64,000 nucleotides of DNA, from NCBI RefSeq assembly GCF_028858725.1, contig NC_084774.1, positions 2,454,001 through 2,518,000 of the forward strand. The letters are read 5' to 3'. Every line of letters begins with the position of its first letter. Positions within the stretch are counted from its first letter, which is position 1. The DNA comes from Colius striatus. Its lineage: Eukaryota > Chordata > Aves > Coliiformes > Coliidae. The translations under genes and the position numbers were made by a program. The notes below the pieces were generated by a model. That model worked only from the letters and a program-made list of their open reading frames with translations. It was not told the DNA's origin and did not search any database. Below are positions 1 through 22,200 of the stretch, piece after piece.

Positions 1-3000
1 AGAGAAAACAACCTAAGTACCGAAGTGTTTGTCAGCGGGCACCTGCATGGGCTTGAACCTGGAGGAGGCTGGGAATTTCCTTAAAAGACAACTCTCAGGT
101 ACCCATGTCCCAGCCAAGAGGACAGAGCTTTTAAGTGCAGGTTCCAGATCTGACCTGATGAACAGTCACCTCAAGAAAGAAATGATAATTAATCAGAAAG
201 CGAGTGCATAAGGAATGGAAAGTGTGGTGTCTCAGCAAGGAAACCCCAGGCTGGTCAGTATAGTAATAAAGGGAGTGTTGCCAGGAGATAAGTTCAATAT
301 AATCTTGTAGAGCATGCCAAAGTGCACACTAAAGCAAAGAGGAGGAAGTCCTTGGGTGTACAAATAAAAGGTAAACCCAGGAGAAAGAGATGAGGCATGC
401 TGCTGCACAGATGAGTTAGAAATAAGACATAACTGAGATGGGCTGCCCAAGTCAACTGAATACATTGCACTGGGTTTAATTACCATGATGAAACAAGAAG
501 AATGGAAGTGATTTCAAATGCATTGGAAGCAAAGTTTGCTTAAAGAGCAAAAATAAAGTCAGATTATTGTCATTTTATCAAAGAAAATCTCACTTGAAAT
601 TAAAGGTCAAGCACTGAGTATTATGCAGTATCTACACATTTAACAGTGAGCAAAAATGATACACAGACATTTGTATTGGTATACAGAAAGTATTGCCTCT
701 GGCAGCCCAAGTACAGAAAGGCAATAAAAATGAGTAAGAGAAACTACTGCAGGAAGCAAAAACCCTTCTGCTGCAAATGGGTATCTCATCAGTTGGAATT
801 AGCTGAAGCAGAGAAGCTGTGTGGGTGGAACTGCCAGTCACCTGTACAGTGCAGCAGGAGGAAGGTCGCTTCAGCTCAAGAGCATCCTGCAGTTTTACTG
901 AGGGGCATGCAGAAGAACTGATCCTGCTGTCAGAAATGCTGCTGAGACTGTGGCTGAAATGCTGCAGGGTGCTCTTGCCACTGACACTCGCCCCAGCACC
1001 AGGGCAGGGGATGCTGCAGGACAGGCCCTGTCCCCCATCTCCTGGGAGGTGAGGTTGCACCTCCATCTCCTGGGCAAAGGCTGAGCTGCAGGGCTTCCTG
1101 GAGGGTTCCTACTCCAGGGGTGTCTGAAAGCAAGGCAGGGAAGGGACCCTGTCCTACAGCCATCCTTTCCCAGACTCCTGTGATTTGTGCCCCAAGGTGA
1201 TTCAGAGCTGGGTACAGGATCTCTCAGTGCAGCAGTTTGTTGTGGAAAAAAAATAATGATAGGAAAATCTTGCCACTTTGAGAAAACTCACACCCACAGT
1301 TCCCTGCAGGGAGGAGCTTCCCAGCTTGCTTGTGTGCTGTGTTGTGCAAGGAAGAACCTCTTCTTGTCTATATTGAATTTGTAACCTGTGAACTTTATTC
1401 AGTGCCTGATTTTTATACCAGAAGAGACCAAAAGTGATGATTCCAGGGCCACTTCCTCATGCCTTTTGTGGAGGAAAAGACCTGTATTGATTTGTGGCTG
1501 GCAAGGCCATCATGTGCCAGTGGGGAGAACTGGATGGTCCTGTTGTGACACAGTGGGCAGTGTATCAGTATGGGAAACTGGGACACAGTAAGGCTTGGAC
1601 CGGGGAGAGTCATAAGGTATCAGTTGGGGGAGTGTATTGCTGGATCTGAGGCTGCTCTTGTTACAGGAGAAAGGGCAGATCATGTGGATGAAAGGAGATT
1701 ACAGAATCACAGAGGCTCAAGGGTTGGAAGAGACCTGCAAAGCTCATCCAGTGCAACCCCCCTGCCAGAGCAGCACCACCTAGAGCAGGGCACACAGGAA
1801 CTCATCCAGCTGGCTTGGAATGTCTCCAGAGAAGGAGCCTCCACAGCCCATCTGGGCAGCCCCTGCCAGGGCTCCCTCACCTCAACAGGGAAGGAATTCT
1901 TCCTTGTGTCTCTTTGGAACCTCTTCTGTTGCAGCTGGGTGTACCTAGTGCATTTCTGCAGGGAGGCAGCACTTGTGTCACTGGGTGCTGGGAGCAGGCA
2001 GAAGGTGGAAGTCATTTCATGAGGGGAAGGAATGAAAACCTAAGCAAGACCTGTTTAGCTCCTGCTAAGGTGAAGCCAGCAGCCTTGATGGGTTGCCTGT
2101 TGTGATGTTCCTGTAAGACTGTTTGAGTCTAAGACACGAGACCTTCTAGCCAGAGTGAGGCAGGAAAGCAGGACCAGTTGCACAGCTCCAGGTCTGCTGG
2201 CAGCAGTGGTGCCAGGCTGGATGAACAAGGGTGGCAGTCATTATCCCTCACTGCCTGGCCAGTACTCACAGGAGAGGAACGTGAGCCTGTCCTCCCAGAG
2301 GAGAGAGTGCTCAGTCCTCTGGGCTCATTTGTGGGTTTGAGGAGTTCAAGTGAAGACAAGTGTGTGAGTGTGTGAGTAAGCAGAGTAGGTTCTGAGTTGG
2401 GATATGTCTGAGCAGTGTGCAGTGTGGATGCAGCACTCTGGTGTAGAAGGGTAACAGCTGTAAACAAAGTGGATGGGAACACCAGCACCCCTGGGAGCCA
2501 GGCTGTGCCCCTGGGATAGACACCTCTGCCAATGTCAATACAGACTACATGAAAGCTTCCCTGTCTGGACTCTTGCCTTTCTTCAAAGAACTTACAGGTG
2601 ACTTTCCTTTGCAAAATCACCTTTCCTATTGGTCATATTTACCTATATGGCCAGTGGTTGTCTTCTTTTAGAAGAGTCTCTACTAATCAGTGCTGTGCAG
2701 TTAGGAGACTTAATGGTCTGGAACATGAAAAACATTATGTCCCAGTAGCAACCTTCCACTCTTTTGTTAACCAAGGCACTTTCCTGTGAGAGACAACACA
2801 TCCTGGTTAGCAGCTGAGCTGTTTCATCCTTGCATTCATTTGTCACTCTTGGGTTAATGTTACCTAGTCCTGCCAGTGTGTTGATATCCTTTCTGATCTC
2901 TGTGGAGATTTCAGTGTGAGACTGATCCTTCCCTCTGTGAAGCTGAGTTGAGGCCAGGGGTCATCCCAAGCTCCCAAACAGTAAACACCGGTGCAGAGGA

Positions 3001-4459
3001 GCTATGTGAGCACTCCTGTAACACATGGACCATGGGGTGTGTGCTAAGTATACTACTTTCTTCAGAACAACACTATGAACCATAACAACTGCACACTGCT
3101 CCAGAAGAAGCCAAGACTTGGCTTTCCTACCAAAAGTTCCCAAACAGCTGTCTTTTGAAGGAAACATGGACAAGGTCCCAAAACACGATGCCAGTGTCAT
3201 GTCCTGAAGTGACATTTACTTGAGGATAATGGGAATTTCCCATCACAAGTGTTTCTGTGATTTCATCCTGCTCTTGTCAAAGTCAGTATGTTGCTGTAGC
3301 AGCTGACAACGCAGCCATAGGATGGCACTTCCATCTCTGAAGGTCCTGTTTTATTTAACACAATGAGTCTGATGATCTGGTTTGGCTATAGCAATAAAAG
3401 AAGCAGCTGATGACTGGGATGGCCAGGAGCCTGGGAAGCTTACTCTGTAAGAGGAACTTCCCTGTTTCATTTATGAAAATGAAGACTGGGAGGAGAAATG
3501 TGGTTTCTATCTGGAGATATATGAGGAGAGAGGTAATTAAGCTACAGTTTGGGCACTAACAACAGGTGGTGTTAAATAGGTAAGGATATTTATGCAGACT
3601 GGAAATTAGTGAAAGCTTCTCCCCAGCTGGGGCAAGGTGACATTTGTTTTAAAGTGTTTTAAATTTGTTTTAATAACAAGGTCCCAGAAAACATCCCAAG
3701 ACATTGTTCTGTAAGAGCAGGCACCTGCTGTGCAAAGCACTCATGAACTTCTAACACCATACATGTCTTAACTGGGCAGCAAGGAAAAGACTAGGGGAGA
3801 CTCACAGCAATTCTGTGGGGTTCTGGAGACCTCTTCTCCTCAAGGCAGTGCCCAAGATCTCCATTCCTTGCCCTCCTGACTGCCTAAGTAGCTCCTTCAA
3901 GTCCACCACATTTCAGGTGTTAAGGACATGCACCTGCCAAGACAAGGGAAGAAAACAGGAGGCTGGGTGTGCCTTCATAAGCCCCCAGACAGCCTCTTTG
4001 TCCTCCGTGTCGCAGTGTACAGCGCTGCCCAAATGCTGAGCTGCAAAACCTGCGATACCAGTTGGGCTGAAAGAGCCCTCCAGTGCCCCATGTCACATCT
4101 CCAGAGAGCTGGAGCTGCCTGTGCCACTGTGCCACTGCCAGCTTGCTGCAAACCGCACACGCCATGTACCCCCCTTGCACGGACTGACACACCTCACCAC
4201 ACAGCTCTCCAACACACAGAGGGAAGGGAATTGGAAATGAGCTTTCCTTCTGGTCAGAGGAAGCTGAAATGAAATGACCATTTTAGGGTTGTTCTTTTGT
4301 AATGATGTGATCAGTGCAATCACCTCGACAAGTAATCCCAGCCCTGCGTACTCCCAGGGAGCTCTAATGCAGCATTGTGTCCCTCGTTGAAGTCACTGCT
4401 GGGTACCTTGGTGTTTTGTAAACTAAAGTTATGAGTTTGTTTTTCTCCTTTCTTTGCAG
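1..4459. other. Intron or 5' flank of FAM83C; no exon recognised
   Basis: This stretch precedes the 3' splice site of the FAM83C terminal exon. FAM83 genes normally have several upstream exons encoding the N-terminal DUF1669 (PLD-like) domain. I looked on the plus strand for the conserved segments that should precede the 'SFTWLCSQVH' block and found none, so those exons are either left of the window or too diverged to see by eye. All open frames here are short and unremarkable. It holds an old CR1 fragment (about 1703-1960) and a small GTGTGTGAG-type simple repeat near 2362-2377. Confidence 0.5.
1703..1960 (-). mobile_element. CR1 LINE 3'-end fragment (old)
   Basis: Read on the plus strand it starts 'agaatcacagaggctcaagg' followed by 'ttggaagagacctgcaaagctcatccag', a 'ggagcctccaca' block and 'cagggctccctcac', the order seen in the reverse complement of CR1 3' ends elsewhere in this window. 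It is 5' truncated and clearly more diverged than the copies at 21366 or 50892. It lies upstream of the FAM83C exon and has no coding content. Confidence 0.75.
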
Positions 4460-5402
4460 TTTCACCTGGCTTTGCAGCCAAGTCCACACCAGCCTGGTGA
4501 CCCACTTCCGTGGCCAAATCGTTGCAGAGTTTGACAAGGAATTCCGGTACTTGTATGCAGAGTCCAAGGCAGTGACCAGCTTCTGTGTGCCAGACCCTGG
4601 GACGTGCCCCTCTTCTCACAACACCTCAAAAGTTGTCCACTCCCTTTTAAAACCCACACAGGGAAATGATGCTGAAACCTTGAGTCCCTCCAGCAGCCTT
4701 TCCAATGTAAGCATCAGAAGCATAAAGGTTTCTCCCTTTCTGAAAACCTCTAGCTGCAATGTACAGCAGGAAAAGCAAGATCCAAGCTCTGATTGTAGTA
4801 ATAAGAAGGGCAAGGAAGACACAGCTCTGAAAGCCACTTGCCTTAAGCAGCAAGGAGAACCACCAGATGCAGCAAACAGTCCTCCAAGTAAGTCCACCTC
4901 GGCCTTGTATCACAAATCAAATCCCGTGACAGCAAGGACATTCTTGCAGCCAGAGCCTTCCCCTGCCCTGAGCTCCAATAAATGTGGCTATCAAGGGGAC
5001 AGTAAGGCTAACAGCAGCCACTGCTCCCCACTAAGGCAGGAGCAGACATCACAGTCCCCTGCGGAGAGTGCTGGGAGCAACGGGACAAGCTTGAAACAGA
5101 AAGGGCCTGCTGCTCCCCCCAGGGAAGGGCCAGCAGAAAATGACACCACAGCTTATGGGATGGAGAAAAGAGAGAGTCCTGGACAAGGGAAATTGGACCT
5201 GCTGTCCCCATACAGCCAGCTAAAGCGAAATAAAAAGCCTGTAGTTCCTTGCTACGACAAACTCCCTGAAGACATGCTGATGGAAAAGAGCAGCACGTAC
5301 GAGCCCGAGAAGAGGATGACCCTGGGGCACAGTAAGCTGGATCTGATCACCAAGTACAACAAGTTAAAGTCTAAACATATCCACAGTCGGTTTGAACTCT
5401 GA
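4460..5402 (+). CDS. FAM83C: FAM83C, terminal coding exon (partial gene)
   Basis: This is the last coding exon of a FAM83-family protein, scaffolds that anchor casein kinase 1 isoforms through the DUF1669 domain. A good acceptor (tttctttgcag) ends at 4459. The exon opens on the third base of a codon and reads FTWLCSQVHTSLVTHF and on, the end of DUF1669. FDKEF at 4530-4544 fits the FxxxF motif used for CK1 binding in this family. About 260 residues of low-complexity Ser/Pro/Lys-rich sequence follow, then a more ordered tail with repeated 'GKLDLLSPY' / 'SKLDLITKY' type blocks ending SRFEL. The stop TGA is at 5400-5402. The exon gives 313 residues, less than half of a full FAM83C by my memory of human length (about 750). 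Choosing C over other FAM83 members rests mainly on its position next to EIF6 and MMP24. Confidence 0.87.
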
Positions 5403-5795
5403 CCCAGGCCCCAAGGTGTCCTTAGGTCTCACTTTCAAGTGGTTGCTTTTCCCCAACAATCATAAGATCTGGGGCTTGAATTCAAAATTGGTGGCAAATT
5501 AGTCTTGTTCCTGTTGGAAGGTGTCTGTGCTGTTTCTCATACATGCAGGTGCCTGTTTCAGATGAGATGAGCAAGTACAGTTCAGATTTTCAATGATGTA
5601 AACACACTCCACACTCCTACATTCCTTTTACCCATCTGGGAGAGAATCATTTCCCCACCAGCTTGCAGCAAGTCCATTGCTACAGCTGGAAACTGTTTGG
5701 TCCCCGAGGTCTTTGGGCTGAACCCAGGTTCTCTTTGTACCGAGCGATTCCAGTGCTGCAAACAAAATGGTCAAAGGCAGGGGAACGTTGCTATG

Positions 5796-5801
5796 AATAA
5801 A
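5796..5801 (+). other. FAM83C: Poly(A) signal AATAAA for FAM83C
   Basis: This is the first canonical AATAAA after the FAM83C stop codon, about 395 bases downstream, giving a plausible 3' UTR of roughly 0.4 kb. No cleavage site can be proven from sequence alone. Confidence 0.5.
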
Positions 5802-5835
5802 AGAGCTGTTCTGCTGGAAAGGGCTGCATTGGGTC

Positions 5836-6364
5836 CCTCGTGGGGAGGTGAACAGCCTGGGCTTGGCCAGGGCCCCTCTGTGCTGAACTGTGCCATGCCA
5901 AGGAGGATGCTGGTGGCATGTAAGCAGTGTCCACACACAGGCGAGATCAGCACACGGGTGGTGTCGGCACAGTGCTGTGTCTCAGCACAGGCAGCAGCTG
6001 ACACTGCTCATGCCTGGACATGGCTGGTGCCTGTACACAAGGGACATGCTGAAGCACTCGAATGGCATCTGGGTCATGGCATGTCTGCAAATGGGTGCTG
6101 CTCACAGCAGATGGCGGCAACGCAAGGATGGTGCTTGGACACAGGTCCCTCCTGGGCAGGGATGGACTGTCAGCACATGGGCAGTGACTGGCCTGTGCTT
6201 GCATCTGTGGTGGTGGCACGTCCAGGAACACAGGCAGCCATGGCAGCCCTGGGCCCATGGCAGCATCCCCAGGTCCAGGCGGTCTGTGAGGGCACATGGG
6301 TGGCCTCAGCCAGTGGAGTCTATCTGGGCACCTGGAGATGTTTGTTGTTATCCCACAAAGTGGA
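5836..6364. other. Intergenic, imperfectly repetitive CATGG/CAGCA-rich stretch
   Basis: Between the FAM83C poly(A) signal and the CR1 tail lies a stretch full of loosely repeated words such as cacatggg, ggcatg, ggcagc and tggcatct. It holds open frames in several phases (for example 5697-6503 plus and 5947-6372 minus), but their translations are Trp/Cys/His-rich, match no family I know and run into the CR1 element. I see no gene; a decayed local repeat is likely. Confidence 0.4.
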
Positions 6365-6768
6365 TCCAGCACTGGAGCATCTGCCTCATGAGGAAAGGCT
6401 GTGGGACCTGGGGCTGTTCAGCCTGGAGAAGAGGAGACTGAGGGGGGAGCTCATCAATAGTTACACTGGTGGGTGTCAGGAGGTTGGGGCAGCACTTTTT
6501 TGATGGCAACTGGACAAGGGCTGATGGGATGAAGCTGGAACACAAACAGTTCCAGTTAAACACAAGGAAAGGCTGTTTCAGTGTTTGAGTGAGGGAGCCC
6601 TGGCCCAGGCTGCCCAGGGAGGGTGTGGAGGCTCCTTCCTTGGAGGGCTTCAAGACCCCCCTGGCCACGTTCCTGTGTGACCTGATCTAGGTGGGAGCTG
6701 CTTCTGCAGGGGGTTGGGCTGGAGCTCTACAGGTCCCTTCCAACCCCACCATGCTGTGATTCTGATAA
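6365..6768 (+). mobile_element. CR1 LINE 3'-end fragment
   Basis: In sense orientation it carries 'ggagcatctgcctcatgagg', 'cctggggctgttcagcctgg', 'agaagaggagactgagggg', 'ggtgggtgtcaggaggttgg', the 'gttccagttaaacacaagg' block and the terminal 'ccttccaaccccaccatg' plus a degenerate 'tgtgattctgat' tail. It is 5' truncated to about 0.4 kb. It sits about 0.5 kb before the GGGGCC tract of the EIF6 promoter region. Same subfamily as the copies near 11730, 21366, 25391 and 50892. Confidence 0.88.
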
Positions 6769-7255
6769 GCCCCGAGTCCACATATCCCGTTACAGAGATG
6801 TGGGTGCTGGAGGGTAACTCCACAAAGCAGCACCTGCAGAGCAGCTCGCAGGCTGTTTGCAGGCAATCGCTTCATGTGCTGCATTCTGATACACAGCCTG
6901 TTACCGTGTGCAGCGATGGGCTGGCAGCCCTTGGCCTGGCCTGGACTCGGTTCATTCCCTCCGGCCTCTTCCCTGTGTCTGGGGTCTGAGCTGCGCAGGT
7001 GGGCTGCAAGCCGGTGGTCACCATCTCCTCCCAACACCTTCGCCTCTCCCCAGTCCTGCAGACGGGCGCTGGCTTCGTGCCCACGCGGCACCGGGAGCCT
7101 TTGGCCCTTCTGAGGCAGCGGGTTCCTCCTCCGCCAGGCTGCAGCCGCCGCGGGAGGACACGGGGGCACCGGTGGAGCCGTTGCTTCAGGGTCATCCTCA
7201 CCGTGGCCCCGCCGTCCGCCCTTCCAGCTGCCACGGCCCGTTTCTCACGGCACTT

Positions 7256-7369
7256 GGGGCCGGGGCCGGGGCCGGGGCCGGGGCCGGGGCCGGGGCCGGG
7301 GCCGGGGCCGGGGCCGGGGCCGGGGCCGGGGCCGGGGCCGGGGCCGGGGCCGGGGCCGGGGCCGGGGCC
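7256..7369. repeat. GGGGCC hexanucleotide repeat, 19 perfect units
   Basis: Nineteen uninterrupted GGGGCC units run from 7256 to 7369, followed by a short G run (7370-7375). This is the same motif as the expandable repeat in the first intron of human C9orf72. It lies 181 bases before the EIF6 ATG. The plus-strand frames read Gly-Ala, Gly-Pro and Gly-Arg; the minus-strand frames read Pro-Arg, Pro-Ala and Gly-Pro. Repeat number in an assembly of such GC-rich DNA may be inaccurate. Confidence 0.97.
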
Positions 7370-7490
7370 GGGGGGCGGCGCTCGCACCTCCCGCCGCGCG
7401 GGGGCGCTGTGGCCGCCGGGCGCGGCCGGGGCCGCTCTGTCCCGCGTCTTCCGGCGGCGCCGCGTGCGTGCGGCGGCGGCAGCGGCGGCC

Positions 7491-7540
7491 CGTCCCGTCC
7501 CGTCCCGTCCCGTCCCGTCCCGTCCCGTCCCGTCCCGTCC
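7491..7540. repeat. CGTCC pentanucleotide repeat, 10 units
   Basis: Ten perfect CGTCC units end ten bases before the EIF6 start codon and are followed by 'cagcccggcc' and ATGG. The tract is pyrimidine-rich (four of five bases) and the following 'cccag' could act as a 3' splice site if EIF6 has an untranslated first exon, as I recall for the human gene; otherwise it is 5' UTR. Confidence 0.95.
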
Positions 7541-7550
7541 CAGCCCGGCC

Positions 7551-7657
7551 ATGGCCGTCCGCGCCAGCTTCGAGAACAACAACGAGCTGGGCTGCTTCGC
7601 CAAGCTTACCAACGCCTACTGCCTCGTGGCCATCGGCGGCTCCGAGAACTTCTACAG
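7551..7657 (+). CDS. EIF6: EIF6 coding exon 1
   Basis: Encodes residues 1-35 and two bases of codon 36, ending GSENFY before donor GTGAGG at 7658. The ATG at 7551 was chosen because it starts the invariant MAVRA(S/Q)FENN N-terminus and has a Kozak-like gccATGG context. Confidence 0.96.
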
Positions 7658-10600
7658 GTGAGGGAGCGGCGCGGCCCGGCCCGGCCCCGCCAACGCGCGC
7701 GGCCCTGACGGCGCTTTCTCGTTGCAGCGTGTTCGAGGGGGAGCTGTTCGGGACCATCCCGGTGGTGCACGCCTCCATCGCCGGCTGCCGCATCATCGGC
7801 AGGATGTGTGTGGGTAGGTGGCGGCCAGGCCTTCCCGGGGAGCCGCTCCGTGCTCGCTCCGCGGCGGGCGGGTCCCCGAGCCCCCACGGCTCTCGTGTTG
7901 ATGCTTCACGTGTGTGACGGGGAGAAAGGAACATCTGAGGCTCACCCGAGATGGGCTCGTGGGGAGCGTGTTCTTCCCGGGCCACCGACACGGGCGAGCG
8001 CGTCCGCTCGCTGCTACACAGGGAGAAGCTTCGTGATTCTTATGGCTCGGTGTCAGCGCTGCAGGGGCAGAGCTTGGGAAGGGGGAAGCATGAGCAAATC
8101 TTAAAGGTTTTCGTGGCCTCTGGCTAGTGAGACTCTGCTCAGTCAGATTAACTTGCTGCTGGAGTTTGGTTCCTGTGGAAAGGGTGCGTTTGCCCATCCC
8201 CATGCACTGTTTCGACACAGTAGTGACTCAGACAAGCAGCATCTGTTACGGGCCAGTTGGCCTCCATGGGGGGAGGTTCCCTGACAAAATGTCTCCTTGA
8301 GAACCTCAGGCGTCCTTTAGTTCTGTGGGAAAGGAGGAGCAGTTACAGATAGTGCTGTTCACCCATTTCTGCTCAGAGAGCTCTGCTTCATCCTTGGTTT
8401 TTCCTTCCTTGTGGCATTGTGTTGTTTTTAAGTGGTGCCGTTTCTCTTGGTTTCTGGGCTGGGCTGGAAGGGAGAGGCAGTTCAAGCCATTCTGTGAACA
8501 CCAGGGAAACAGGAACCATTCTGGGGTTTATTTTTTACCTCTTTCTTTGTGTGTGTGTGTGTGATTTTAGGAAACAGACACGGGCTGCTGGTGCCAAGCA
8601 GCACGACAGACCAGGAGCTGCAGCACATCCGCAACAGCCTGCCCGACTCCGTGCGCATCCAGCGAGTCGAGGAGCGGCTCTCGGCGCTGGGCAACGTCAC
8701 CACCTGCAATGACTACGTGGCTCTCGTTCACCCAGACCTGGACAGGGTGTGTGGCTGGGTAACACCTCTACATCCACAGAGGATGCAGCTGATCACAAGC
8801 TGTGTGTGGGGATTGCGGTGGTTGATGATTGCTGTGGGGATCAGGGGACCTGCACCAGCACCTGAGCTTTGCTGCCTCAGGTTTCCCTTCTCCTGAGGAG
8901 AGAAATCTCAGGATTGGACTGTGGACTGCTGACTTGGTCTCAGTTGGTCTGTTCCTTTTCCCTCTGATCTGCCCCTGTGTGCCCTCTGGCTCTGCAGCTT
9001 GTGCCCTGTGGGGAAGGGGTGGAGTATGGGAGTAGAGTGTCAGGTGCAGTTTGCTTTGTATATCTAAAAGTGAATGAACAAAGAAGAGAGTGTGCTCATG
9101 TGGCCATAAAGCAGAGTTTAGACAGGGCTACAGCAGTAGTTACCAGCTGTTACTGAGCCAGCTGAGATGTGTAAGAGTTGAAAGAGGCCACAGAGGTGGT
9201 GGAGTGTGTTTACAGAGGGGGAAGGAAAAGTGGAAGATTCTCGTATCAAAGCTTAAAGTAAGGGCAGAGGAGACAAAGTTGCTGCTACTTAGTTTCAGAT
9301 CTGGTTTCCTAGTGGCATTAGAGAGGAGTGTTGTGTGGCTACAGGAAGTGAAGGTCCTTACAGTGTTTGCTGTCAGTTTGTGCTAAAGATGATGAAGAAG
9401 TGGACTTGGTGTTAGGAGTTCAAAGGGGAAAACCAAAAGGAAGTGGAGGGGAAGGTAAAGGCAGCATGTTATGTTGTAAGTAAGTGTAAAAAGTAAGGTA
9501 ATATGGCCAGAGAAGGAGAAATGAAAATAATTTGCAGTAAAAGCCTTGCAGGGGAAAGAAGATCTTAGTTATACAGAAGGAGAAGACACCACTGATGTAC
9601 TGCCAGTGGCCTCCAGAAAGGAGAAGAGAGCATCCCTCAGTGAAGGCACAGCAGTTAGTGCTGGTGGCCCAGCTCAGTGTGCACAGGTGTCTGGAAATAC
9701 CTGGAGTACAGAGGTTGAGTGAGCATTTGGTAATGATGGGATTGCAGTGGGTTGTGAGGCTTGCAAAGGGGAGGGTCCCAGCTGATGGCTGCTTGCAGGA
9801 ATAACTCGACTTCAAATTCCATGAGGCTGATGTGCTGAAGACTTCATTCTCTCTGTTTGCAGGAGACAGAAGAGATCTTGGCAGATGTACTGAAGGTTGA
9901 GGTTTTCAGACAAACAGTAGCAGACCAGGTGCTGGTGGGAAGTTACTGTGTTTTCAGTAACCAGGGAGGAATTGTGCACCCCAAAACGTCAATCGATGAT
10001 CAGGATGAACTGTCTTCGTTGCTGCAGGTCCCACTTGTGGTAAGGCATTTGTGGGTTTGTGCTTTCTGTTGCCACTCCCTTCCAGCCCAGTTCTCAGCTT
10101 TAATGGTTCTGCATCTCATGGGCTCCTCAATAGTGTTTCCTCTGCAGAGCTGTTCCAAGCAGGATGTGAGGAGATTTGAATGGAGCAAATCTTAAGTGCT
10201 GTTTTCCCTGCCTTTCCTGAGCCTGAATAAGCTTCTCAGCAGCTTTGCTTTGCTTCTGAAACGTTGCACTGCTGGGATTGTGCAAGTTGTGCTGATTGAC
10301 TCACAGAATGTGAGGTTGTCTGTGGTTTGGCCAAAGGCAGTGTTTAAAAAAAGAAAGTCCTATTCCTGCTGAGTGTGTTGGTGAGCTTCAGCATTGCTGT
10401 GCCTTTGGCCTTCCTGCTGTTGGGTCTCGTTTCTCTGAGTGGCACAGGGTTTTCTCTCCACACATGGAAGGCTTCCCATCACTTTTTTAATCTGAAATCT
10501 CTATTGCTTTGTTGATGGCAGAGGCTTTAATCTTTCCAGCAGTGTGAGCTAAGGCCCTCTGCTAAAGTTTTGTCATAAGGCTGCAGTAAGGACCCCAGGC

Positions 10601-12905
10601 CAGGAGCTGTTACCTCTCAGTGCTCTGGCCCTGTGTAGCTGTTACCTCTCAGTGCTCTGGCCCTGTGTAGCTGTTACCTCTCAGTGCTCTGGCCCTGTGT
10701 AGCTGTTACCTCTCGGTGCTCTGGCTCTGTGTAGCTGTTACCTCTCAGTGCTCTGGCCCTGTGTAGCTGTTACCTCTCGGTGCTCTGGCTCTGTGTAGCT
10801 GTTACCTCTCAGTGCTCTGGCCCTGTGTAGCTGTTACCTCTCAGTTCTCTGGCCCTGTGTAGCTGTTAACTCTCAGTGCTCTGGCTCTGTGTAGCTGTTA
10901 ACTCTCAGTGCTCTGGCCCTGTGTAGCTGTTACCTCTCAGTGCTCTGGCCCTGTGTAGCTGTTACCTCTCAGTGCTCTGGCCCTATGTAGCTGTTAACTC
11001 TCAGTGCTCTGGCTCTGCTAGGCTGGGACAGTGAACCGTGGCAGCGAGGTGATTGCAGCAGGAATGGTTGTGAATGACTGGTGTGCCTTCTGTGGGCTGG
11101 ACACAACCAGCACTGAGCTCTCCGTCATCGAGAGTATCTTCAGGCTGAATGAAGCTCAGCCAAGTACCATTGCTACCAACATGAGAGACTCCTTGATTGA
11201 CAGGTAAGGCCTATGTATAGTCATGATCAAAACAGGCAACATTTTCCTATAAAACTGTTTTCACAATTGATTTATCTCTCTTGTTTGTTTGTTTTGACTC
11301 CTTTCCTTTTGTGGGGTTACTGAGCAGTTACCTCATTGCAGAAGGGTTTCTTTCCTTGTAGCTGATGTGCCTGCTTAGTCCTGTATGGAAAGTCTGAAGT
11401 GGTTTTCATGCAGTTGTAATGCTTTTTGTGAGAAATAACATCCATTTCAACTTTCAGATACACTTTAAAGTAGCTGTTCAGTGCTTAGCTATGGCATGAA
11501 TGGATTGTTTTAAAACAAATCTTCTTTGGAAACTTAAAATGCCAGTGACTTTGACATCTTGGCTTTAGATTATTGTAACCTGTACAATTTGTGCTTCAAA
11601 TGCCAGCTGCAGATGTTTCTGGAGTCAGAATCACTTTGGAACTTCACTAATGCTGCCCTAAATCCTTTTCATTTGAGGCTTCTGCCTTAAAATATTTTTT
11701 AAGCCCTTTTATGAAACTCTTTGGCCAGTTTGCCCTGCTGAGGCCTCATCTGGAGTCCTGTGTCCAGTTCTGGGCTCCCCAGCCCCAGAGGGACAGGGAA
11801 CTGCTGCAGAGAGGCCAGTGCAGGGACACCAAGATGATCAGGGGACTGGAACATCTGCCTTGTGAGAAAAGGCTGCGGGACCTGGGGCTGTTGAGTCTGG
11901 AGGAGACTGAGGGGGGAGCTCATTAATAGTGACAAATATCTCACTGGTGGGTGTCAGGAGGTTGGGGCAGCACTTTTTTTCTGTTGTATCCAGTGACAGG
12001 ACAAGGGCTGATGGGATGAAGCTGGAACACAAACAGTTCCAGTTAAACATAAGGAAAAGCTGTTTCCCTGTTTCAGTGAGGGAGCCCTGGCCCAGGCTGC
12101 CCAGGGAAGGGGGGGAGACTCCTCTCTGGAAGTTTCCAAACCCACCTGGACACGTTCCTGTCCTGATGTAGGTGGGAGCTGCTTCTGCAGGGGGTTGGGG
12201 TGGATGATCTCTACAGGTCCCTTCTAACCCCCCCATGAAGTTGCCTTTCAATGGGAGGGAGTTTTTTGTGCTTTCTGCCTGGACTGGGAGTGGTGCAGCA
12301 CCCTCCCCACTCACTAATGCACATGGTTTTGCAAGGTTTAGGCATATGGATGTTTGGTGAGTGTCCTGTGCAGACTTCACTTGGGCTTTCATGTGATTGC
12401 AGCTCCTGGGATCATTGCACACACAGAGGTGGGGTACTAGAGGTGTGTTCTTGAGCTGCCCGGGCCGTTGCACCTTGGTGTCTCATTTCTCAGTTCAAGA
12501 ATGTGTGGGAATGGTTTTTTGGCATAAGGAATGAATAAGGACCTCCTTGAATGAAGGACCATTGCACAGAGTTCTTTGCTGCTCCTTTTACAGTTCCTAT
12601 ACAAAGGTGTGATGTCTCTGAGCTTAACAAAGCCATAATCAAATGTGCTCTGAGCTGTTGATGACCACCGAGGGTAGGCTGAGCCTGTACTCACTGACAG
12701 ATCTGTTCCTGCACCATTCTGTTCACAGCCACTGTGTCTGCTTCCCTCTTTTCATAGACCCTTGTGTTCTAGGAAGGGAAATTTCTAGGGGGCCTTTGGA
12801 ATTGGAGGTTGAGAACTGACTGTACTGGTGTTTGAAATGCCTTCTGCACTCCCCAGCACTCAGCTGCTAAATCTCTTTTCTGTTTTGTCTTTTAGCTTGA
12901 CATGA
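7551..12905 (+). CDS. EIF6: Eukaryotic translation initiation factor 6 (complete, six coding exons)
   Basis: EIF6 binds the 60S ribosomal subunit on its intersubunit face, blocks premature joining to 40S and acts in nucleolar and cytoplasmic 60S maturation; its release involves SBDS and EFL1. The spliced frame (7551-7657, 7728-7813, 8571-8746, 9863-10039, 11022-11203, 12896-12905) gives exactly 245 codons plus stop, the standard animal length. It begins [20 protein letters not shown] and ends DSLIDSLT. All introns are GT-AG and phases agree. The five pseudosymmetric repeats of the IF6 fold are intact. Serines 174/175 in DELSSLLQV, phosphorylated by CK1 in mammals, are present. The start has a strong context (gccATGG). 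The frame is also open upstream to 6999 through the GGGGCC tract, but no known eIF6 has such an extension. Confidence 0.98.
7728..7813 (+). CDS. EIF6: EIF6 coding exon 2
   Basis: Follows a very short 70-base GC-rich intron with acceptor ctcgttgcag. Encodes [17 protein letters not shown] through RMCV and one base of the next codon; donor GTAGGT at 7814. Phase joins cleanly to both neighbours. Confidence 0.95.
7814..8570 (+). other. EIF6: EIF6 intron 2
   Basis: A 757-base intron. The first part is still in the CpG island; the 3' end has a (GT)n run at about 8548-8564 directly before the acceptor. No other gene or element recognised. Confidence 0.8.
8571..8746 (+). CDS. EIF6: EIF6 coding exon 3
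   Basis: The acceptor (gattttag) follows a GT dinucleotide run. Encodes [20 protein letters not shown] through [12 protein letters not shown] (residues 65-123). It ends AGG before donor GTGTGT at 8747, a weaker donor than those of the other exons. Confidence 0.95.
8747..9862 (+). other. EIF6: EIF6 intron 3
   Basis: A 1.1 kb intron of ordinary composition, with purine-rich sequence at about 9400-9560. I see no repeat family or structured RNA in it. Confidence 0.75.
9863..10039 (+). CDS. EIF6: EIF6 coding exon 4
   Basis: Acceptor ctgtttgcag. Encodes [17 protein letters not shown] through [12 protein letters not shown] (residues 124-182), 59 whole codons. Donor GTAAGG at 10040. Contains the regulatory Ser174/Ser175 pair. 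Confidence 0.96.
10609..11021 (+). repeat. 32-bp tandem repeat, 13 units, ending in a functional splice acceptor
   Basis: Units start at 10609, 10641, 10673 and so on every 32 bases to 10993, with few substitutions (gttacc/gttaac, ggccctg/ggctctg). Each has a pyrimidine-rich stretch and two AG dinucleotides, one in 'cctctcag' and one in 'ctgtgtag'. The thirteenth unit (10993-11021) is shortened and ends in 'ctgctag', the acceptor of EIF6 exon 5. The array looks like repeated duplication of a 3' splice-site region. Confidence 0.96.
11022..11203 (+). CDS. EIF6: EIF6 coding exon 5
   Basis: Encodes [20 protein letters not shown] through NMRDSLID and two bases of Ser243. Its acceptor (ctctgctag) is the end of the thirteenth unit of the 32-bp tandem repeat that fills the end of intron 4. 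Donor GTAAGG at 11204. Confidence 0.95.
11204..12895 (+). other. EIF6: EIF6 intron 5
   Basis: A 1.7 kb intron before the tiny last coding segment. Its middle is a CR1 insertion in the same orientation as the gene (about 11728-12240). The remainder is unremarkable. Confidence 0.8.
11728..12240 (+). mobile_element. CR1 LINE 3'-end fragment in EIF6 intron 5
   Basis: Sense-strand CR1 starting near 'tgccctgctgaggcctcatc' and running through 'cagttctgggctccccag', 'ggaacatctgccttgtgag', the 'gttccagttaaacataagg' block and 'cccttctaaccccccc'. Same subfamily as the copies at 6365 and 21366. Truncated at its 5' end; no open reverse transcriptase. Confidence 0.92.
12896..12905 (+). CDS. EIF6: EIF6 coding exon 6 (last ten coding bases)
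   Basis: Acceptor 'tgttttgtcttttag' ends at 12895. The exon completes Ser243 and adds Leu, Thr and TGA, restoring the conserved C-terminus DSLIDSLT. The rest of this exon is 3' UTR of undetermined length: the first canonical AATAAA on this strand is at 14843, with an ATTAAA at 14157. Confidence 0.92.
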
Positions 12906-15328: not shown

Positions 15329-16112
15329 GAGGGGCTGCCCTGCAGAGGGGCTGTCCTGGAGAGGGGCTGTGCTGCAGAGGGGCTGCCCTGCAAGGGGGGC
15401 TGCCCTGGAGAGGGGTTGCCCTGCAGGGGGGCTGCCCTGGAGAGGGGCTGTGCTGCAGAGGGGCTGCCCTGCAGAGGGGCTGCCCTGCAAGAGGGGCTGT
15501 GCTGCAGAGGGGCTGTGCTGCAGAGGGGCTGCCCTGCAGAGGGGCTGCCCTGCAGAGGGGCTGCCCTGCAAGAGGGGCTGTGCTGCAGAGGGGCTGTGCT
15601 GCAGAGGGGCTGTGCTGCAGAGGGGCTGCCCTGCAAGAGGGGCTGCCCTGCAAGAGGGGCTGCCCTGCAGAGGGGTTGCCCTGCAAGAGGGGCTGTCCTG
15701 CAGAGGGGCTGCCCTGCAAGAGGGGCTGCCCTGCAAGAGGGGCTGCCCTGCAAGAGGGGCTGTGCTGCAAGAGGGGCTGTGCTGCAAGAGGGGCTGTCCT
15801 GCAGAGGGGCTGTCCTGCAGAGGGGTTGTGCTGCAGAGGGGCTGTCCTGCAAGAGGGGCTGTGCTGCAAGAGGGGCTGCCCTGCAAGAGGGGCTGCCCTG
15901 CAAGAGGGGCTGTCCTGCAAGAGGGGCTGTGCTGCAAGAGGGGCTGTGCTGCAGAGGGGCTGCCCTGCAAGAGGGGCTGTGCTGCAGAGGGGCTGCCCTG
16001 CAGGAGAGGCTGCCCTGCAGGAGAGGCTGCCCTGCAAGAGAAGCTGCCCTGCAAGAGGGGCTGCCCTGCAGAGGGGCTGTCCTGCAGAGGGGCTGCCTTG
16101 CAGAGGGGTTGC
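15329..16112. repeat. 16-bp GC-rich minisatellite, about 48 units
   Basis: Units of the form gaggggctgccctgca alternate with variants (gtgctgca, gtcctgca, and a 17-bp form with an extra A: gcaagagg). Because 16 is not a multiple of three and the unit has no stop in any phase, long open frames appear on both strands (for example 15161-16132 plus, 15253-16197 minus). They encode Cys/Gly/Pro-rich or Pro/Ser/Gln-rich repeats. I regard these as by-products, not genes. Confidence 0.95.
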
Positions 16113-18891
16113 CACAGCTGTGCTCAGGGTGACCATGTGGCAGGACTCCCCTTGGGCTGCACAAGTGACCAGAGCTCTGGGTTGTCATTCTGGGCACATA
16201 CTCAGAAAAGTCTGTTGCTTGAAAGGTTTGAGTTGGACACAGATGGCTGCTCCCTGTGGTGCCAATATGGCCTGGGGCTCTTTTCTGGACAGGAATTGGA
16301 AGTGACCAGTGTGGAGAGCAGCCACACTGATGGGAGGCACCAGCTGATACTGTGCTGAGCAGGTACCGTGTGTCTGCAGCATGATACAGGATCCCAGCAA
16401 AGAGCTTGGGAGGGTTTGGGAATATTTAGGAACTACTCTTTACATGAATACTGATGTTTGTGCCCAGCCCCAGCTCAGGTGCTGATGTTAACGAGAGATG
16501 ACAGTGCTGTGAATGGCATTGTACTTGGGGCAGTGAGTGCACGGCTCAGCTCCCTGCCCCAGCTTCCCTGCTGCCAGTGCCTGACTGTAGAGGACTGTTC
16601 TCAGCCCTCATGCCCTGGGAAAGCTTAAATATGTAACATCTGTACCAGGAGCCAGTTGCAAAGCAGTCAGAAAAGGCACCAAGCTGTTCTGTGGCTCCTT
16701 GGAGCAGCAGTTCTGAGGAAGGCTGGCTGTTGGCAGCCACGCTGCTGCCTCTGCAGCTCCTTACCCGGTACTGGGCTCTGAACAGACCAAAGTTCTACCT
16801 TTGGGCAGCAGGGAGGACACAGACAACAGCAGACCTTTGGCTAGGTTGTAATTACTTGTTTTTAATGATGGCTGTTGGAAGTTTCTCAAAGGTTTGGGCT
16901 GTCCCAGCCCCGGCGAGACGGGCGCGTACAGGTGAGCCGAGGTGGCTGCGGCGTTCCTCGTGTGCGTCCTGCCACAGCACAGCCACGGAGCAGCAGGGGG
17001 CTGAGCAGTAGCTCCCGTTTCATTTGGTCCTTTGCACTCCTTCACCCATCATGAGACATTATCACATTTTTTTCTCACTAAAAGATTTGCATCTACGAGC
17101 TTCTCACTTTGTAATATGTTTGTAATACTGGGTTTATGTTTGAACACAACAAAGAGCTTGGCTATGGAAATCAATTATGAAGGACAAAATCCAGTTGGAG
17201 ACCATGTGTGATGCAGTCCTGGTGGGCTTCACTACTTGCCTGGCAATATTTGAGCACTAGTTAGAAACTGAGAACGCTCACAATCCTTCTGCTGCTTCAT
17301 TCCTCAGCATGGCAAAGAATATCTTTTAGCATGTTTGTTAGCCTTGGGTTTGTTTGTTCTTAGCCAACACTCTAAAGCTGTGCTTTGCACCGTGCTTTGT
17401 GCTGCACTTCCATTGCTCTGAATGAAATTCAGTTGCAGGCAGAGGGCTGAGGCTCAGCCCCTGCTCCTTGGAGTGAGTGTGCAAAGCAGCTCGTGTGCTT
17501 ACAGGAGTGGCACTTTGTACAGGCTGGGCTTCACCATTCCATGGCACTGCAAGAAACTTCTACTCTTATTTAAGATGGTAGAAATATCAGCAAATAAAAG
17601 AGACTAAGTTTGTGGTTAGGACACACCATCCAAATCCAGCCACAGCTGTAGGAGAGAAGCAGAAGGAGGTGGCGTGGGAAGAGACCTGTGAAATGTTCAG
17701 ATGTTTACCTGGCCTTTGCCTGGTCCTTATGTCTCTGTGGCTAGTGCTGAACTCATTCTACTGTGTGACATGCTTCCTTTGGGCCTTGTCAAATACTTGC
17801 CTGTGAAGAAGTGAGCAAAACTAAGAAACAAATGTCAAAGGCATACAATGTTTGTAACATCTACAGGGACTGGGCTGAGTTTATAAACAGGCCTAATTCT
17901 GTGTCTTGACTATTCCATCAAATACAAGGATGGTCTCACTCCAAACAAACGTCTCCATTCTCCTAGAACCCAACATACAAATTCCACAATCTAGTTACAA
18001 GTGCCACACAACAACAATTCATCTCTTCCCAGCATCTTCCCAGGGGCAGGGTGCAGCCTACGTCTATACACGTTTCTCAGTCCGTCTGTAACCGTCAGTT
18101 CGACCTTAAAACAAGGGTTTGTGACATTTGAATATTTCTTTCATGAATGGCTCCCAAAAGAAAAACATGTATTCCCATGGCTGATTGCTTTAGACCCAAT
18201 TTGTCTTCAGACTGTCCCAGTGTAGGGCTTGATGTTGCCAGGTGTCTGTTTTGGTGCTCCTTGAGCTGCTCGGCACTCGTTCACCTCGTGGAGCGCTTCG
18301 TGGTTCCTCATGCATGGTGCTGAGCGGATTAGTCATGAATGTACAAAATATCTGACCAGCAGCTATTGGAAAATTGTGTCCAGGTAATTCCCTGGACCTT
18401 GTAATAAACTAAGAAGATTTTTTTTTGAATGGTTCAGCATCAGAATGTCTTCTGCTTACAACACTGAATCGTGTGCACAGATTCCATGACCTTGATTCGT
18501 TTATGAGACGGCTGTTAAAAAAATGGTTCTGTTCAGAGGTGGTTTAGCTACACTGGAGAATGCTGGGTTTAACAGGGAGCACTGGTGCAGGGAACTGAAG
18601 GAAGTTTCCTGGGTCAGTTGAAGCCTGTCTTGAAGACTCTGATGTTAGCAGAGAGCCTGTGGAGGATGGCACACCACGACTGAGGCAGCAAAGAGGCTCC
18701 ACGCTGCAAGGCTGCCTGTGCCTTTTCCAGTTTTCCTGCTTCTTTTGGTCCCAGGTTGTCCAAAACTTGTAGGTCACTGAAGTAGTTTTGTTTGGTAGGC
18801 TTCTGAATGGGTTTTTGTTTGTTTTTTTTGTTCCTTTTTCTTTTGTGTCCATAGTCCTCAGATCAAGGAGCTGAAGTGTGCAGCAGCTGTG

Positions 18892-19229
18892 TCATACCCA
18901 CTCCTGGACAGGTCTTTTGTAATACACAACATTCTGCTGCACCTCTTTGTTTTTAAACTGGAAGATTGTGTATACCAAGACAAGGATACACAAAGACAAA
19001 ATGCAAGGGATCACAACTGCAATTGCATTTACAGTGCTGGGCATATCGTTTATTGTCACCATAATATCCACGTCGTCGTGGGGCAGGCGTCTGTCTTTGC
19101 TCCGCTCAACATCCTTCTGGTTACAGCCCATCCAGTCTTTGAGGATCGACCTGGGGTAGCCTGGCTCCACACTCAGCCTCTGGTTATCGAACTTCCAGTA
19201 CTCCTTTCCTTTGTAAAAGTAGGTATAAA
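18892..19229 (-). CDS. MMP24: MMP24 terminal exon: end of hemopexin, stem, transmembrane helix, tail
   Basis: The acceptor is ttttgtctcctag on the minus strand. The exon completes a Phe codon and reads [16 protein letters not shown] through DWMGCNQKD (last hemopexin Cys). A stem with ERSKDRRLP (19087-19104) and [11 protein letters not shown] follows, then a hydrophobic helix [19 protein letters not shown] and a basic tail ending QEWV. TGA is at 18892-18894. In the human stem the convertase shedding motif is RRKERR; here the second Arg is Ser, so no RxxR remains. Confidence 0.97.
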
Positions 19230-22200
19230 CTAGGAGACAAAACAGAGAGCATTTCTCACAATGCCGTCTCCAGCTGTGCTTGTGTGCAGATGTGCAGAAA
19301 GCCTGAAAGGCTGGAGGTGGCAGCTGTCTAGGCCAGTAAAACACATTCACCCAGGGCATCCCAAAACCACTGAGAAGTGAACGTGGTTTTGGAGCTAGGA
19401 TTTAAAGGAGAAGCTATAACCCTGGCTCCTGACTGCAGCTGTTGCCCACAGAGCACCATTCCCCTTGGCTAAGACAAGCTGTGAATAAAGACCCATCTCT
19501 GTGTCCTGCAGTGAGCTGGTTTTTCTAAAGCATCTGTGAAGATGCTCATCATTACAAAGCAATTAAAATAATCTGCAGAAGGACTGTGTGTGACTGCTTG
19601 AAAGAATACTTCAGGTTTCTGTTCACCCAGCCTGAGGAGGTAGGTGCTGAATGAATCCAGATCTGCCCTTTGTCTTGTTCTGCTGCTGATAAAAGGCTGA
19701 TGGTTTATGCTCTGTGTTGTCTGAAGTACCCCTCCTCAGCCCAGATGACTCCTTTTCTAACCATTCTCAAGTGATTAGAGAAGAAAAAGGGAGAAGGGAA
19801 CAGTGGTATTTGGTCTCCTGCACCCACTCTGCAGCTTGGCTGTCTCACTGCACACCTCCAGCCTGGCCCAGCCCTGCAGCCTGTGTCCCACACTGCAGCT
19901 CCACATCTTCACACTGCCTCAATGGCCCAACCTCTTCTGTTAGTTCTTTCCCTAACTGGAAGAAGAGCAAGAAATCTTCAAATCAGAGAAAGAAATGTGC
20001 TGGAAGAAGCCTCTGGGGATCCAATGCCCTACTTAGAGTGTGGCTGACTTCCAGGGGCATTGGGCAGGCTGGAGCCTGTAACAGAGAGAGCTACAGGTAA
20101 GGAAGCAGGAGGAAAGTGTAAGTTATGGCATCCTCAGTGTCAGGGCTCAGGAAAACTCGAGTTGGGACTGTTGTGGCAGCAAGACCAGGAAAAGTGCCCT
20201 TCCCATCCCCTAGAGCTGACACTGTGTGGTTTGGCAGTTGAGGCAATACATGGATTGGGGTGAAGGTCAGGAAGGATCTCAGACTGCCAGTGCTCACAGT
20301 GCCTGTGTCACCCCAGGGCTTCTGAGACTTGATTCCTGTCTCAGGAAATACCCAAAACACCCCCCATGCAACAACCCAACTCCCAGCAGATACGTACAGC
20401 CTTCTTTGCTGATAAAAGCTCCCTGTGGAGCCTGAGGGATTCCTCTCCACACAGTAATGGGCTTTGGGTATCCTGGGTCTGTTGCTCTTTTGTCCTCATT
20501 GTACCTCCAGTACCTGTCACCCTTGAAGAAGTAGGTTTTGCCCACGGGCTCCCAGCGCAGAGCCGTGTCGATGCCTTCCCGGGGCAGACAGCTCCCCAGC
20601 TCCACCAGACTGTGTGGGTAGCCTGGCTCTGCTGTCACTTCTTTAAAAACCCAGTATTTATCTCCTGGAGATGAACAAGGACACAAACAACAAACAGGTT
20701 TGCCTAATTAGTGGTTGAATGGATATGAATGTAGCACAGCCCCAGCGTGCTGAGGACTTCCAGGCTCAACTGAGTTACCTGAAAAAGCTGCTCCTCTGCA
20801 TTTTGAACCTGAAACCACCTGATTGCATTTGCTGCTCCTCAGCTCTTGTTTTGGGAGAGGTGTTAATCCTTTTCCATTTACCTCTTCTAGGCTAATCATG
20901 ATTCCAAAACTTCTCTCATACCCTGTCCTTGTCATTCCTCCCTCAAGCTGAGGGTTCCCTGCAGGTCAGCCCATACTTTTCCATTGTTTCTGTTGCCCTC
21001 CTCTGAGCCTTCTCAAGTACCAATACAATTTACTGAGCTGAGGGACTGAAGCTACAGACAGAAATTCAGGAGACCAGGCACTGTGTTTTTGTACAGGGCC
21101 ACGCTGATGCTTTCCAGCCACCTTTCCTTGTTTACAACTTACTCTCTAGTTACCTGATCCTGTCCAGACATGATCACAGTGCAAGGAGCTGAAGTGAGCC
21201 CCAGCATAAGGTTGGTCATTATATCTCTTTATGAGACAGTTGTCCAGAAATGTGGCCTGGGAGTGCCCTGTACCTGGAGAGACCCTAATGCCCTGCTGAG
21301 ACACGTTCAAGATTGACAGGAGACTGACATGCCCAGGGAAAAAGGAGCTATTTCTTGTTAGCACATAGAATCATAGAATGGTAGGGGTTGGAAGGGAGCT
21401 TTAGAGATCATCCAGTCCAACCCCCTGCAGAAGCAGCTCCCACCTACATCAGGTCACACAGGAACGTGTCCAGGTGGGTCTTGAAGCCCTCCAAGGAAGG
21501 AGCCTCCACCCCCTCCCTGGGCAGCCTGGGCCAGGGCTCCCTCACTCAAACACTGAAACAGCTTTTCCTTATGTTTAACTGGAACTGTTTGTGTTCCAGC
21601 TTCATCCCATCACCCCTTGTCCTGTTGCTGGATACAACAGAAAAAAAGTGCTGTCCCAACCTCCTGACACCCACCAGTGAGATATTTGTAACTATTAATG
21701 AGCTCCCCCCTCAGTCTCCTCTTCTCCAGGCTGAACAGCCCCAGGTCCCGCAGCTTTTCCTCACAAGGAAGATGTTCCAGTGCCCTGATCATCTTGGTGG
21801 CCCTGCACTGGCCTCTCTCCAGCAGTTCCCTGTCCCTCTGGGGCTGGGGAGCCCAGAACTGGACACAGGACTCCAGATGAGGCCTCAGCAGGGCAGAGCA
21901 GAGGGGGAGCAGAACCTCCCTTGCCCTGCTGCCCACACTCTTCTTGCTGCCCCCAGGCTGCCATTGGCTTCTTGCCCACGAGGCCACGTTGCTGCTCATG
22001 GGCAGTTTATTCTCACCCAGCACTCCCAGGTCTGTGTCTGCAGAGCTGCTCTCCAGCAGGTCACCCCCAGCCTGTGCTGGTGCAGGGGGTTGTTCCTCCC
22101 CACCTGCAGGACTCTGCCCTTGTCCTTGTTGAACCTCAGGAGGTTCCTCTCTGCATGGAAGCAGCCTGTCACCAATCAGTATCAGCTTTGTACTGTCCTG

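Follow-up and report, generated by a model that had tools for sequence, protein, structure and literature searches.

A pure GGGGCC microsatellite beside EIF6 in the bird Colius striatus

The window analysed here, a stretch of 64,000 nucleotides (64 kb) of the Colius striatus genome, carries a SACK1/FAM83-type frame (+), EIF6 (+) and MMP-type exons (−) in that order, which presumably equals the human arrangement FAM83C-EIF6-MMP24. The identity of EIF6, proposed in a first-pass annotation of this DNA, is confirmed by the protein joined from five coding exons on the forward strand (7551–7657, opening with the ATG at 7551, 7728–7813, 8571–8746, 9863–10039 and 11022–11203), a 243-residue query that contains a Pfam eIF-6 domain (E 5.3e-79) and aligns from Met1 over residues 1–242 to residues 1–242 (of 245) of PDB 6lqm chain 6, which we take to be human eIF6. 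The end of exon 4 was set at 10039 by its fit to eIF6, leaving an alternative donor at 10036 (score −1.0) unused. A likely last coding exon from 12896 (+) was chosen among 24 candidates because it ends in SLT and a stop, SLT being, we assume, the human eIF6 ending. Upstream, Pfam recognises a SACK1/FAM83-type frame (4422–5402, +) that ends about 1.9 kb before the array described below, and 3′ of EIF6 on the reverse strand, matches to Hemopexin/DUF3377 (18892–19401) and Matrixin (Peptidase_M10; 57889–58422) identify exons of a membrane-type matrix metalloproteinase, which we take to be probably MMP24. Repeats presumed to be of CR1 type also occur in the window, for example at 6360–6765.

A divergent coding gene sharing a promoter with EIF6 was considered and set aside: the four upstream frames scanned show no sign of one, and the nearest recognised upstream coding exon, the SACK1/FAM83-type frame, lies on the same strand. 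These four, out of 20 open frames in positions 1–7000, were the SACK1 frame and three frames crossing the array; in the Pfam scan the latter returned an eIF-6 fragment and two weak matches (TrAA12 and CFAP143), each under its curated cut-off, with one frame blank. When the EIF6 exon at 9863–10039 was compared with other collections, none of the 25 pattern matches among viral contigs was confirmed, and two of the 357 among genome contigs (a set without birds) were, both of them archaeal (L001 and L002) and therefore of no use for promoter comparison.

The sequence preceding the EIF6 ATG belongs to a CpG island of 1,240 bp (6951–8190; GC 0.72, CpG o/e 0.90), the only one of at least 400 bp in the window. 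Inside this island, where the first-pass annotation had placed it, lies a perfect GGGGCC array whose 19 error-free units (7256–7369, +) and spacing of 181 bases between the last full unit and the ATG both agree with the original description. The perfect period-6 run continues to 7373 (118 bp, 19.7 units, 100% matches), so that the start at 7256 stands and the end, originally given as 7375, moves in by two bases, both of them G. The array consists of G and C only, with 19 CpG dinucleotides and neither TpG nor CpA. Its chance expectation is below 1e-47 per 1 kb of island-like sequence, judged by composition, and, when a first-order model is applied to the 64-kb window, below 1e-78. Slippage enlarges tandem repeats, so such figures indicate that the array is not random sequence, and nothing more.

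No second GGGGCC or GGCCCC array of at least two units occurs in the 64 kb, where lone GGGGCC hexamers outside the array number five on the forward and 11 on the reverse strand. Outside the array, a scan of the forward strand of the window returned a single 11-bp word that keeps the phase of the GGGGCC repeat, GGCCGGGGCCG at 7424–7434, which is possibly a relic or sister of the seed that founded the array. Perfect STRs (unit 2–6 bp, at least six units) are limited to three in the 64 kb, (GGGGCC)19 being the longest and (CCCGT)10 the second; both sit just 5′ of the EIF6 ATG, and the third, (TG)8 at 8548–8563, is located in an EIF6 intron.

The second of these repeats is a perfect (CCCGT)10.6 array at 7489–7541 (+; 10 full units at 7489–7538), which reads as GGGAC-type repeats on the reverse strand and is separated from the ATG by nine bases, with an acceptor-like CCCAG directly 3′ of the tract. 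Together, the GGGGCC and CCCGT arrays flank the only copy of CTTCCGG in the window (7448–7454; CCGGAAG on the reverse strand), a putative ETS/GABP-like site. When 20,000 island-like sequences of 177 bp were simulated, 997 (about 5%) contained a 7-mer of the CTTCCGG type, and the match at 7448 is therefore suggestive only. A GGGCGG hexamer at the 3′ edge of the GGGGCC array (7373–7378, +) is of Sp1 type.

The link to G-quadruplexes drawn in the first-pass annotation holds as a prediction by pattern: using a motif definition of at least four G-runs of at least three bases with loops of 1–7, a quadruplex motif is predicted on the forward strand of the array (7256–7375, G4Hunter 2.07), and another on the reverse strand across the CCCGT tract (7489–7546, G4Hunter −1.68). 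The same pattern yields four motifs per strand in the 64-kb window, and the top 25-bp G4Hunter score is found elsewhere (2.44 at 54506–54507, against 2.36 at 7352 for the array), so the GGGGCC array is not the strongest quadruplex candidate of the window. Predicted RNA folds were −224 kcal/mol for a leader including the array (7256–7553; z +2.3 against shuffles) and −32.8 kcal/mol for one without it (7455–7553; z +2.6), with 200 of 200 shuffles folding at least as well in each case. Both folds being weaker than those of shuffles, their stability reflects composition only. An unusual single-strand fold in the array was likewise discarded as a candidate, being not clearly above shuffles (DNA z −0.8 on the forward and +2.6 on the reverse strand; RNA z +2.3); DNA folds of the CCCGT stretch gave z +1.5 and +3.3. 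These fold outputs contained no quadruplex, a structure that we assume to lie outside the fold model.

The motif had been called C9orf72-type, and the identity of the repeated unit stands. Human C9orf72 repeats of 3–25 units are normal and those of more than 30 pathogenic (PMC11006399), so the 19 units at EIF6 are high-normal on the human scale, and the disease analogy rests on the motif alone; the likeness to neurodegeneration is one of motif identity, and any shared mechanism is hypothetical. More specifically, GGGGCC stands on the coding strand at both loci, close to the 5′ end of the gene, but the bird array has 19 units in one sequence, below the expanded range, belongs to another gene in another species and is a candidate for transcription only. 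The R-loops and dipeptide-repeat proteins invoked in the original description would both require transcription through the array. At C9orf72 a CUG in a favourable context is in frame with poly-GA, and this feature has no counterpart at EIF6: CTG codons in the GA frame occur 5′ of the array at 6941, 6986, 7004 and 7139, and none of those in the stretch scanned from 6990 combines R at −3 with G at +4. The C9orf72 codon is described as a near-cognate CUG 5′ of the repeat (PMC8106499).

Other known repeats offer partial parallels. The CSTB dodecamer CCCCGCCCCGCG (EPM1) and the XYLT1 and FMR1 repeats are similarly GC-rich and situated in a promoter or 5′UTR, and their length can change gene dose, whereas the EIF6 array is known here from one reference sequence. 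NOP56, like EIF6, is a ribosome-biogenesis gene, and its GGCCTG repeat (SCA36) is a GC-rich hexanucleotide at the 5′ end, although of another motif and in intron 1. The NOP56 repeat can also encode poly-GP (PMC8106499), and its pathogenic length is put at 650 units or more (PMC11006399) or at more than 100 (PMC8106499). A further class is that of avian promoter STRs (Abe and Gemmell 2014, PMC4203960), perfect repeats of at least six units near the start of CpG-island genes. By the definition of unit 2–6 bp, at least six units and no more than 2 kb upstream of the transcription start, the array would belong to this class if its distance is taken to the ATG, 181 bases away. Roughly 10% of the genes of chicken, duck and zebra finch have a perfect STR of at least six units within 2 kb 5′ of the start, tetra- to hexanucleotide repeats in avian promoters have more units than dinucleotide repeats, and chicken core promoters are enriched in quadruplex motifs (PMC4203960). 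The 20 motifs in Table 1 of that paper include neither a hexanucleotide nor ACGGG, the class to which CCCGT belongs.

How far the comparison with C9orf72 can be carried depends on transcription through the array, and on this the evidence is divided: the CpG peak and the ETS-like site point to a start downstream, and human gene structure to one upstream. CpG o/e is 0.65–0.78 in the three 100-bp bins of 7001–7300, 0.85 in 7301–7400 and reaches its peak of 1.17–1.23 at 7401–7600. Human EIF6 is reported to have seven exons, the first of them noncoding, and a main start lying 498 nt 5′ of the ATG (PMC3279413), in a passage that does not state whether this is a genomic or an mRNA distance. Were birds to share this gene structure, the array would be transcribed, in the leader or in an intron. 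The human promoter is further described as TATA-less with CpG islands (PMC3279413), and GABP as the best-characterised EIF6 regulator (PMC3279413 and PMC9189357, citing Donadini 2001, 2006).

We posit, with a modest preference, that the array is a slippage-grown GC-rich microsatellite in the EIF6 promoter region, with the transcription start downstream of it and a possible slight tuning of EIF6 transcription. Replication slippage acting on a short GGCCGGGG-type seed would have produced the array, and the word at 7424 may be a relic of that seed. Its purity, with 19 CpG and no TpG, would be due to growth that is recent or ongoing and to an island unmethylated in the germ line. The main start would lie between about 7400 and 7550, 3′ of the array, in which case any effect of the repeat would be exerted at the DNA level: it would be a nucleosome-excluding, quadruplex-prone and Sp1/KLF-friendly spacer just 5′ of a core promoter that may be ETS/GABP-driven and TATA-less, with array length perhaps slightly tuning transcription. 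Array purity, the CpG peak at 7401–7600, the sole CTTCCGG at 7448 and the predicted quadruplex motifs on opposite strands suggest such an arrangement, and the TATA-less, CpG-island, GABP-regulated human promoter is consistent with it by analogy. The limits of ribosome scanning make very stable leaders poor ones, and a leader that included the array, at a predicted −224 kcal/mol, would suit a housekeeping mRNA badly, even as an effect of composition. Further suggestive points are the lack of any sign of a head-to-head coding gene and the precedents of avian promoter STRs and quadruplexes. Against the promoter reading we count, by analogy, the human start 498 nt before the ATG, together with the roughly 5% chance of an ETS-like match, as well as the RNA folds weaker than those of shuffles and the stronger G4Hunter score elsewhere in the window.

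Less probable, though to be taken seriously, is the view that EIF6 transcription runs through the array, which would then belong to the 5′ leader or to a first intron separating a noncoding exon 1 from the exon with the ATG, a gene position like that in C9orf72, and would act through RNA quadruplexes, R-loops or altered splicing. The five EIF6 coding exons found by protein match and the likely sixth make up the count expected if a noncoding exon precedes them, as it does in the seven-exon human gene, and the CpG island begins at 6951, 5′ of the array. Splice-site scores, based on a consensus table, point to a candidate intron around the array. A donor-like CAG/GTGGGC (6996–7004, +; exon end 6998, score 8.6), the best-scoring in 6800–7545 and assigned speculatively to a noncoding exon 1, compares with 11.4 (7657), 6.4 (7813) and 7.1 (8746) for EIF6 donors; the acceptor-like CCCAG/C after the CCCGT tract (7529–7544, +; exon from 7544, score 6.9) compares with 8.9, 4.0, 12.9 and 5.7 for four EIF6 acceptors. 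This acceptor is mediocre, however, and four acceptor-like sites 5′ of the array outscore it (7138, 10.5; 7054, 9.2; 7062, 7.6; 7228, 7.2); also adverse are the low CpG o/e before the array relative to 7401–7600 and the ambiguity of the human distance of 498 nt.

Transcription from 5′ of the array would also be required for a further reading, in which a near-cognate codon initiates an N-terminally extended eIF6 with GP and RPVPS repeats. An open frame at 6990–7661 (+) reads the array as poly-GP and runs in frame into EIF6, with no ATG before 7551. In this frame an ACG in Kozak-like context (gctgccACGg; 7233–7235, +) begins 23 bases before the array, much like the FMR1 poly-G product, whose translation begins at an ACG situated 32 nt 5′ of the repeat within a putative Kozak element (PMC8106499). 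However, 6,095 of 20,000 simulations contain a near-cognate codon of this kind within about 57 nt when one given frame is considered, and each of the three sense frames crossing the array stays open beyond 7551 (GR to 7917, GA to 7708, GP to 7661), so an in-frame GP-EIF6 fusion is a one-in-three event. The five-base CCCGT unit means, moreover, that most changes in unit number would break the GP-EIF6 frame. Judged by the one-in-three frame and the simulation frequency, the arrangement is likely due to chance; as a designed fusion it was rejected and is kept as a curiosity, and production of a poly-GP-eIF6 protein is scarcely credible. The fuller scenario, in which EIF6 of this bird lineage has a transcribed, length-variable GGGGCC repeat in its leader or first intron, making a ribosome-assembly gene the natural non-human equivalent of C9orf72, with in-frame poly-GP-eIF6 from some transcripts, we regard as very improbable.

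It is quite unlikely that the unit number or purity of the array is an artefact of assembly or consensus and not the animal's own. GC-rich bird promoters and quadruplex-bearing tandem repeats are known sources of assembly trouble: older bird assemblies lost GC-rich promoters, and the absence of some regions has been attributed to such repeats (PMC9516821, PMC6792250). The usual trouble described in those sources is loss of sequence, however, not a clean single array, and the window contains no N and no further GGGGCC array. That loss may be why an array of this kind has gone unreported. Consistent with the original claim that no such report is known, no GGGGCC repeat at EIF6 was found among the open-licence papers listed or in the eIF6 passages of PMC10928199. 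The array is a clean, unusual GC-rich microsatellite beside EIF6. Were it both transcribed and variable in length, a natural GGGGCC locus not far below the human threshold would be available in birds, on a translation factor, for studying the stability and tolerance of such repeats. As promoter DNA only, it would illustrate a kind of GC-rich repeat often lost from older bird assemblies, and would be a candidate cis-acting tuner of EIF6.

Longer tandem repeats accompany the genes elsewhere in the window. A 32-bp minisatellite (10605–11017; 12.9 copies, 95% matches) occupies the last part of the EIF6 intron that precedes the exon at 11022, whose acceptor (CTCTGGCTCTGCTAG/G) resembles part of the diverged last 32-bp unit. 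A GC-rich minisatellite 3′ of EIF6 (15329–16113) has a 16/33-bp period, with about 24 copies of 33 bp at 88% matches, and several frames open through it on both strands, and between the two MMP-type exons a 20-bp repeat at 43318–44081 is organised in a 104-bp higher-order unit (7.4 copies).
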